Of a stretch of DNA of 64,000 nucleotides, positions 53,881 through 55,126 are shown in pieces (position 1 is the first letter of the stretch; the number at the start of each line of letters is the position of its first letter). The DNA is from Aeromicrobium choanae (GTDB taxonomy: Bacteria > Actinomycetota > Actinomycetes > Propionibacteriales > Nocardioidaceae), in NCBI RefSeq assembly GCF_900167475.1, contig NZ_LT796768.1, positions 186,001 to 250,000 of the forward strand, read 5' to 3'. A program made the position numbers and the translations under genes. Under the pieces are notes generated by a model. It saw nothing but the letters and a program-made list of their open reading frames with translations. It did no database searches and was not told the DNA's origin.

Positions 53881-53894
53881 AGGACTCTCATGTG

Positions 53895-53970
53895 GCGAAG
53901 ATTCCCCTGTTAACAGGGGAATCCACCACTATGCGGGGGAAGTTCTCCCCGCATAGCGTGAGGAAACCCC
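53895..53970 (+). repeat. Left 76-bp inverted repeat of the AbiEi-like cassette
   Basis: This copy matches the reverse complement of 55051-55126 at 66 of 76 positions with no gaps. It contains a perfect 22-bp palindrome centred on GTTAAC (53901-53922) and a hairpin with arms CTATGCGGGG (53929-53938) and CCCCGCATAG (53947-53956). The likeness may run on for about 7 more bases inward (GCACGGT against GCTCGGT). Confidence 0.93.
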
Positions 53971-54066
53971 GCACGGTGGGGGTCGAACCTGTGCATGAAG
54001 CCCTCCCCATCCACAAGCTCGAGCCACGATCTGGCCCGCGCATGCCGGCACCGGGACTCTTGCAGC

Positions 54067-55044
54067 ATGACGCTGGACCTCGACTCGATCGCAAGCCTTC
54101 GTGGCGGATACATCCTGCGGCCGGACCTGCTCGACCTCGGCTACAAGGACAGGCACATCCGGCAGGCACTCGACGCCGGCACCCTGGTGCGACTCCGTGT
54201 GGGGACCTACGCGCCGCAATCCCATCAGAAGCTCAGAGCGGAGGAGAAGTACCGCCTGCTCTGCTTCGCCGTGCTGGACAAGCTCCCCTCCGGCGTTGTC
54301 CTCAGCCATCAGTCGGCCGCGGCCATCCACACCGGCGTCACGTGGGGCTTCGACCTGGAGACGGTTCATGTGACGCGCCTCGATGGTCGGAGTCAGCGCC
54401 CAGAGTCCGGCGTGATCCACCACGCCGGCGCGCTCTCCGAGTCCGACGTAGCCCGGGTCGAGGGGCGTCCCGTCGTCGTACCTGCTCGAGCCGCGTTGGA
54501 AGCCGCTTCGATGGCGGGAACCGAGGCGGGCATGATCCAGACGTCACTCGTGCTCCGGGCCGGCGTGGACGCTGGGGAACTGCACGAGCGGCTGGAGGCG
54601 ATGCGCCGATGGCCAGGATTCAACGCGGTGCGCCTGTCCGTTCTGTGGGCGGCGCCTGCGTGCGAGTCCGTTGGAGAAATCCGATCGGTGTGCATGTTCC
54701 GCCGCGGCAACCTTCCCATCCCGCGGATGCAGGTGACGTTCTTCAGCGCGGACGGCAGGGAGATCGCTCGCGTCGACTTCGACTGGGAGGACTTCCACCA
54801 TTGCGGCGAGTTCGACGGCCTTGAGAAGTACGGCCGACTCAATCCACATGCCGCCTCCATGCCGGGCCAGGTGTTGGTCGACGAGAAGCTCCGCGAGGAC
54901 TCCGTCCGCGAGCTCTCGCGCGGGATGAGTCGTTGGATCTGGCGCGATCTCCACACACCTACCGCGACGTGCCGGCGAATCGCGGCCGCGATGGAACAGT
55001 CACGACGCCGCTACGGGCCGCCCCCGCGCACGATCATCGTGTGA
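54067..55044 (+). CDS. AbiEi-like winged-helix protein with nuclease-like C terminus
   Basis: A 325-residue protein. The N-terminal segment GYILRPDLLDLGYKDRHIRQALDAGTLVRLRVGTYAP matches the AbiEi antitoxin winged-helix domain. The middle resembles the same family (VLSHQSAAAIHTG). The C-terminal part has CESVGEIR (Glu204), RVDFDWED (Asp237, Asp239), GEFDGLEKYG (Glu248, Asp250, Lys254) and VDEKLREDSVRELSRGMSRWIWRDL, a pattern like Vsr/DUF559 restriction-fold nucleases. No AbiEii toxin partner is adjacent. ATG 54067 is chosen over a longer frame because the domain begins there. Confidence 0.8.
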   Translation: MTLDLDSIASLRGGYILRPDLLDLGYKDRHIRQALDAGTLVRLRVGTYAPQSHQKLRAEEKYRLLCFAVLDKLPSGVVLSHQSAAAIHTGVTWGFDLETVHVTRLDGRSQRPESGVIHHAGALSESDVARVEGRPVVVPARAALEAASMAGTEAGMIQTSLVLRAGVDAGELHERLEAMRRWPGFNAVRLSVLWAAPACESVGEIRSVCMFRRGNLPIPRMQVTFFSADGREIARVDFDWEDFHHCGEFDGLEKYGRLNPHAASMPGQVLVDEKLREDSVRELSRGMSRWIWRDLHTPTATCRRIAAAMEQSRRRYGPPPRTIIV

Positions 55045-55050
55045 CCGAGC

Positions 55051-55126
55051 GGGGTTTCCCATCGCTATGCGGGGAAAGCTTCCCCCGCATAGCGGTGGTT
55101 TCCCCTGTTAACCGGGGAAACTTCAC
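55051..55126 (-). repeat. Right 76-bp inverted repeat of the AbiEi-like cassette
   Basis: This is the mirror copy of 53895-53970. It has a hairpin with arms GCTATGCGGGG (55064-55074) and CCCCGCATAGC (55083-55093), and a palindrome centred on GTTAAC (55099-55120) with one mismatched pair. It starts 6 bases after the stop of the AbiEi-like gene. Its outer end contains the stop codon of the phospholipase-D-family gene (55125-55123). Confidence 0.93.

Follow-up and report, generated by a model that had tools for sequence, protein, structure and literature searches.

Inverted repeats bracket an AbiEi-like gene with a putative nuclease domain in Aeromicrobium choanae and other Actinomycetota

In the 3.42-Mb single-contig genome of Aeromicrobium choanae (labelled G000), a gene whose protein is modelled as an AbiEi-antitoxin fold joined to a Vsr/I-Bth0305I-like nuclease domain is enclosed by an inverted pair of two-hairpin repeats, and additional copies of this repeat are scattered through the same genome. 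The stretch analysed, here called the window, comprises the 64,000 nucleotides from 186001 to 250000, and the bracketed gene was first remarked upon in an initial annotation made from its letters; that observation is confirmed and is larger in extent than was claimed. What multiplies is the short repeat and not the gene, in the manner of REP/RAYT systems. Gene and repeats are likely to constitute a REPtron-like system, a pairing of a nuclease gene with mobile palindromes cognate to it, whose protein would be unrelated to the RAYT (HUH) transposases. It also seems fairly probable that they represent an undescribed class with a wide distribution in Actinomycetota, where it would be an AbiEi-Vsr fusion nuclease, and no HUH transposase, that maintains and spreads its own lineage-specific double-hairpin repeats.

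As initially annotated, the arms 53895-53970 and 55051-55126 agree at 66 of 76 positions and each holds two palindromes, one centred on GTTAAC and the other with a CTATGCGGGG stem. The natural repeat unit is slightly displaced from these (53897-53977 and 55044-55124, identity 71/81), and alignment of the copies in the genome gives the approximately 81-bp unit a layout of GTTAAC outer palindrome, inner hairpin and a tail resembling half of the inner stem. Folded as DNA, the left repeat has a z of -6.8 and the right one of -5.5 relative to mononucleotide shuffles. The right repeat overlaps the nuclease-like gene by one base, the last of its stop codon, and extends as far as the stop codon of a PLD gene. 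The sole match to a known RNA family, mir-598, was far under the gathering score and outside the repeats, and was rejected.

A search of 98 genomes, 97 relatives and the host, at a threshold of E 1e-10 gave a homologue in 73, host included; 13 of the 48 same-genus relatives had no match. An inverted-repeat bracket was present at all of the first 30 loci examined and, with one fixed rule, at 103 of 110 loci of the host and relatives (two being host loci) and at 69 of 80 loci of named actinobacterial genomes, these being the best 80 of at least 567 matches and spanning Aeromicrobium, Nocardioides, Rhodococcus, Pseudonocardia, Nocardia, Gordonia, Geodermatophilus, Jiangella and others. The two sets partly overlap, with a combined count of 172/190, and a PLD gene of the same genus, used as a control, had a bracket at 1 of 30 loci, a weak one with arms 61% identical (E 7e-4). 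Medians for the flanking repeats are 83 bp in length and 80% in identity, and the bracket extends behind the gene as well, at a median of 35 bp from the protein match. Folding z relative to shuffles was below -3 for 238 of 344 flanking repeats and for 2 of 171 nearby control stretches. A GGTTTACC-type motif occurs in 87 of the 344, and since 85 of the 87 carry it in their outer half, repeat orientation is fixed in the motif-bearing cases. The pair at locus L118 was distant and unrelated, was rejected as a bracket, and the locus is counted as unbracketed under the fixed rule. At L202 2747-4580 (Nocardioides luteus) and L212 2742-4583 (N. turkmenicus) the right repeat lies some 570 bp farther away, and enclosed with the gene is an extra reading frame, a possible cargo gene, with a GMPGVGKS motif that we take to be P-loop-like.

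Mobility of the repeats had been expected to reveal itself as copies elsewhere, and a genome search placed the host repeat at 15 places, 13 without the gene and two flanking it, so that it is not confined to this site. A gene call based on GC at codon position 3 (GC3) put gene 3′ ends on both sides of the repeat at 8 of 14 scanned host loci; at L019 it saw zero genes. The host repeat is present in 4 of the 98 genomes, host counted, the other three being G006, G040 and G048, among which are both of the genomes whose homologues are closest. Dispersed copies, from 8 to 40 per pair, were also counted for five more gene-repeat pairs. The repeat of G013 is at 10 places and occurs in 3 of the 49 genomes of the genus, strongly in G013 only; that of G034 is at 16 places or more and occurs in 13 of the 49; and another family, with a query derived from G087, is at 14 places in G087 and at least 40 in G070, all these counts being of merged matches and those of G034 and G070 lower bounds because their candidates were partly scored. 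In both G013 and G034 a good many of the scattered copies are symmetric, with two inverted arms round one central hairpin, a likeness to REPINs. The second host homologue, L163 (G000:C1:183633-184769, at 183.9 kb), about 1.2 kb before the window and 23% identical to the window protein, is enclosed by a 119-bp inverted bracket of its own and has a repeat of its own, found at 8 places; it is probably at an ancestral site, since both its flanks recur at L067, which links it to a 26-locus group.

Relatives lacking exactly 53895-55126 had been named as a sign of mobility, and two come very close: G040 and G048 align with the host on both flanks and show 12 bp where the host has 53893-55122, almost though not exactly that interval. 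The site is uninformative in G006, which also aligns on both flanks but has 123 bp of other sequence between them, and in G047, G041 and G017, whose left flank is different. Both G040 and G048 carry their own gene elsewhere, 63-64% identical, with the genes of G000, G040 and G048 all at different sites. The site of the G040 cassette has 11 bp in G047 and 81-123 bp in G017, G041 and the host, while G048 has a single repeat (G048:C79:1419-1492) where G040 has the full repeat-gene-repeat cassette. In the same intergenic spot G041 and G017 (L302/L303) have a different palindromic-looking element of about 81-83 bp, possibly another repeat family using the same target. The singleton repeat L016 is missing from each of the four relatives in which the junction was read (G047, G040, G006 and G048); its site is uninformative in G041 and G017, where longer other stretches lie between the flanks.

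Flanks could be compared for 104 of the 110 loci, 6 being too short; 66 of the 104 are linked into 9 groups by flanks that they share on both sides, which suggests stable inheritance, and 38 stand alone. The same-genome homologue pairs compared, 44 in number, are at most 66% identical, so there are no fresh gene copies. As for the selfish cassette initially suggested, these identities and the one close gene copy in the host do not look like free copying of the gene. An ordinary small transposon, with the repeats as its terminal inverted repeats, the protein as its transposase and the single copies as solo ends or leftovers resembling miniature inverted-repeat transposable elements, is unlikely on the same grounds and in view of the shared-flank groups, even if it would account for the presence and absence of the complete cassette at orthologous sites, the differing sites of the G000, G040 and G048 genes and the 38 loci that share both flanks with no other. 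It would also leave the many copies in G013 and G034 that are symmetric round a central hairpin, unlike broken ends, and would sit poorly with there being no clear target duplication at the compared sites.

Different lineages have different repeats, and those of paralogues within one genome are mostly unrelated: for 30 of the 44 same-genome pairs the repeats of the paralogues score no higher than the shuffled 95% level of 14. For 40 of the 44 both members match better beside a homologue in another genome, a test biased toward its result as one paralogue is set against the best of about 100 others. This lineage- and paralogue-specific pairing suggests that the protein would recognise its cognate repeat. 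Recognition by the N-terminal part is plausible because AbiEi antitoxins are described as binding inverted repeats (PMC7319586).

The single gene read between the arms stands, and the AbiEi-type winged helix ascribed to its product is borne out by Pfam AbiEi_4 at residues 5-50 and by an AbiEi fold in the structure model; PADLOC AbiEi models match inside residues 4-177 of the 324-residue query. The nuclease-like C-terminal fold that had been proposed is also found in the structure model, where it resembles that of the Vsr/EDxHD superfamily catalytic domain. Four of the five residues initially named as a restriction-fold pattern, D237, E248, D250 and K254, are invariant in a 35-sequence alignment, as is E204, which had gone unnamed; the fifth, D239, is not among the invariant or near-invariant columns. 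K254 is a lysine where, we presume, a histidine would be expected in EDxHD/Vsr enzymes. Across 171 aligned bracketed homologues the putative active-site residues are nearly invariant. At E up to 1, neither a Vsr/EDxHD family among 35 members nor Y1_Tnp or another transposase family in the window protein and the 35 aligned members was detected with Pfam, and for the window protein searches of NCBIfam and, by sequence, of the PDB gave no match at E 1. A phage gene was considered and rejected, with no PHROGs match at E 0.1. Of the three neighbours scanned, one encodes a protein kinase, one a PLD-domain protein and one a product that Pfam does not match; as had been stated, neither a transposase nor AbiEii is among them, the host genome as a whole not having been searched for a RAYT or other transposase. 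The weaker GC bias of the gene is likewise upheld, its GC3 of 0.825 being lower than in the genes for the kinase (0.958) and the PLD-domain protein (0.886).

Somewhat more doubtful than a transposon is a repeat-binding regulator or nucleoid factor, with the repeats as operators or terminators spread in trans by, for instance, a RAYT or an insertion sequence. AbiEi antitoxins are described as binding inverted repeats at their own promoter (PMC7319586), and a position between gene 3′ ends is that of terminators or REPs, but a regulator would hardly call for nearly invariant putative nuclease residues, for a repeat behind the gene as well as before it, or for paralogues with mostly unrelated repeats. 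That the whole is an AbiEi-type defence or toxin-antitoxin cassette whose repeats serve mobility or expression only is very improbable: the PADLOC matches are what speaks for it, and no support for the defence role initially entertained was found beyond the AbiEi label, while the AbiEii-type partner is missing from the three neighbours, the model has an extra nuclease-like domain, and it is the repeat and not the gene that has multiplied. Chance, the gene simply happening to sit between two members of an intergenic-repeat family, may be dismissed as having next to no probability, for although two gene-less inverted pairs enclose ordinary genes (L250 and L263), brackets at 172/190 loci in the overlapping sets vs 1/30 in the control, and different repeats in different lineages, argue against it. 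Taken as a whole, the initial interpretation is partly supported.

The REPtron-like reading is built on the bracket, the dispersal, the lineage and paralogue specificity, the empty sites and the conserved putative active-site residues, all read from sequence, and from these we infer repeat binding, cleavage, transposition and a role of the protein as mover. The AbiEi part would recognise the cognate repeat, probably as extruded or single-stranded hairpins, and the nuclease part would nick or cut next to it; the approximately 80-bp repeat might then be copied to new sites, often near gene 3′ ends, via repair or strand transfer, with the complete repeat-gene-repeat cassette relocating more rarely than the repeat.

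Several observations, besides the bias of the paralogue test, weigh against this reading. No bracket was detected for 18 of the 190 homologues, and the 17 of these that were aligned retain the active-site residues except for one K254. With Foldseek alone the nuclease matches are not significant (3r3p, E 2.4; 1cw0, E 2.0), and residues 255-263, beside K254, have a predicted local distance difference test score below 50. The singleton repeat L013 is in G040 and missing in the closer relative G047, and so was either lost in G047 or gained twice (the site is uninformative in G041, G006, G017 and G048, where longer other stretches lie between the flanks), and no clear target-site duplication is seen at the compared sites, where flanks have diverged. 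Repeats are also found where no gene matches at E 1e-10: in G006, in G041, G043 and G025 (G034-type) and in G047 (G040-type), these last being either orphan repeats or companions of a gene too diverged for detection. The G047 copies, at G047:C1:723063, 767087 and 846788, are 87-93% identical. Finally, inverted repeat pairs enclose two unrelated genes, either by chance or as mobilised cargo; the pair at L250 1013-1888 (G013) surrounds a single gene for an FMN_bind_2 protein and that at L263 516-1251 (G028) a single gene for a hexapeptide-repeat protein.

Table 1. Features of the bracketed locus, in window coordinates
Feature	Position	Strand	Remarks
Complete cassette	53893..55122		12 bp instead at the orthologous site of G040 and G048
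Left ~81-bp two-hairpin repeat	53897..53977	+	outer hairpin, inner hairpin, tail = third half-arm on gene side
Left repeat outer palindrome, GTTAAC centre	53900..53923		self-complementary match and fold
Left repeat inner hairpin, CTATGCGGGG stem	53929..53956		fold
Gene for AbiEi-like/Vsr-like protein	54067..55044	+	ATG to end of stop codon, 325 aa; one distant homologue elsewhere in host genome
AbiEi-antitoxin-like fold, codons 1-196	54067..54654	+	winged helix and nucleotidyltransferase-like domain; Pfam, structure model
Vsr/I-Bth0305I-like nuclease domain (predicted), codons 200-315	54664..55011	+	E204, D237, E248, D250, K254; alignment, structure model
Right repeat copy, inverted	55044..55124	-	arm comparison and empty-site comparison
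Right repeat inner hairpin	55059..55098		inverted-repeat search
Right repeat outer palindrome	55098..55121		self-complementary match

If the protein does move its repeats, the REP lifestyle would here have an independent origin based on another enzyme, RAYT-like genome colonisation having evolved at least two times from unrelated enzymes, here by the joining of an antitoxin DNA-binding module to a homing-endonuclease-like domain, and solitary "AbiEi-family antitoxin" annotations (at least 567 relatives) would need rereading. Gene-repeat pairs are numerous, a genome often holding at least two, which opens recognition and dispersal to direct testing; they may also supply a natural set of repeat-specific nucleases. 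No published description of such a system was found in a search limited to part of the open-licence PubMed Central literature, and the main text of a 2025 REP survey mentions neither RAYT, nuclease, AbiEi nor Aeromicrobium (PMC12306157).

Among known systems, AbiEi antitoxins of type IV AbiE, and Rv2827c, share the antitoxin fold; the window protein differs from them in having no AbiEii nucleotidyltransferase toxin among the three neighbours and in its extra C-terminal nuclease-like domain. I-Bth0305I represents a homing endonuclease family (PMC3943268) whose active-site pocket has been likened to that of Vsr (PMC11879112), and the difference from both I-Bth0305I (EDxHD) and Vsr is that neither Pfam nor the PDB, searched by sequence, gives a match. 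The CGTC-tagged REPs, one of the REP families without a known mobiliser and described as having no known dedicated transposase (PMC3733652), are alike in being dispersed palindromes and differ in sequence and size, and kinship is not claimed. The closest likeness is to REP/REPIN-RAYT (TnpA-REP) systems, REPtrons and TIRtrons, as described in PMC3733652, PMC6006769 and PMC8266576: a nuclease gene between inverted palindromic repeats (103/110 and 69/80 loci here), cognate repeats dispersed intergenically in the same genome, often at gene 3′ ends, inverted dimers, multiple independent gene-repeat pairs in one genome, indications of stable inheritance, and coevolution of enzyme and repeat. REPs usually number more than 100 copies (PMC2817692), in contrast to the 8 to 40 places here, some of them lower bounds. 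The unit here, of about 80 bp, has two hairpins and a third half-arm, and in place of a Y1/HUH transposase domain there is a protein with an AbiEi fold and a predicted Vsr-like domain; since the defining HUH transposase was not found by Pfam, the system is not a member of the REPtrons, however closely its organisation resembles theirs.
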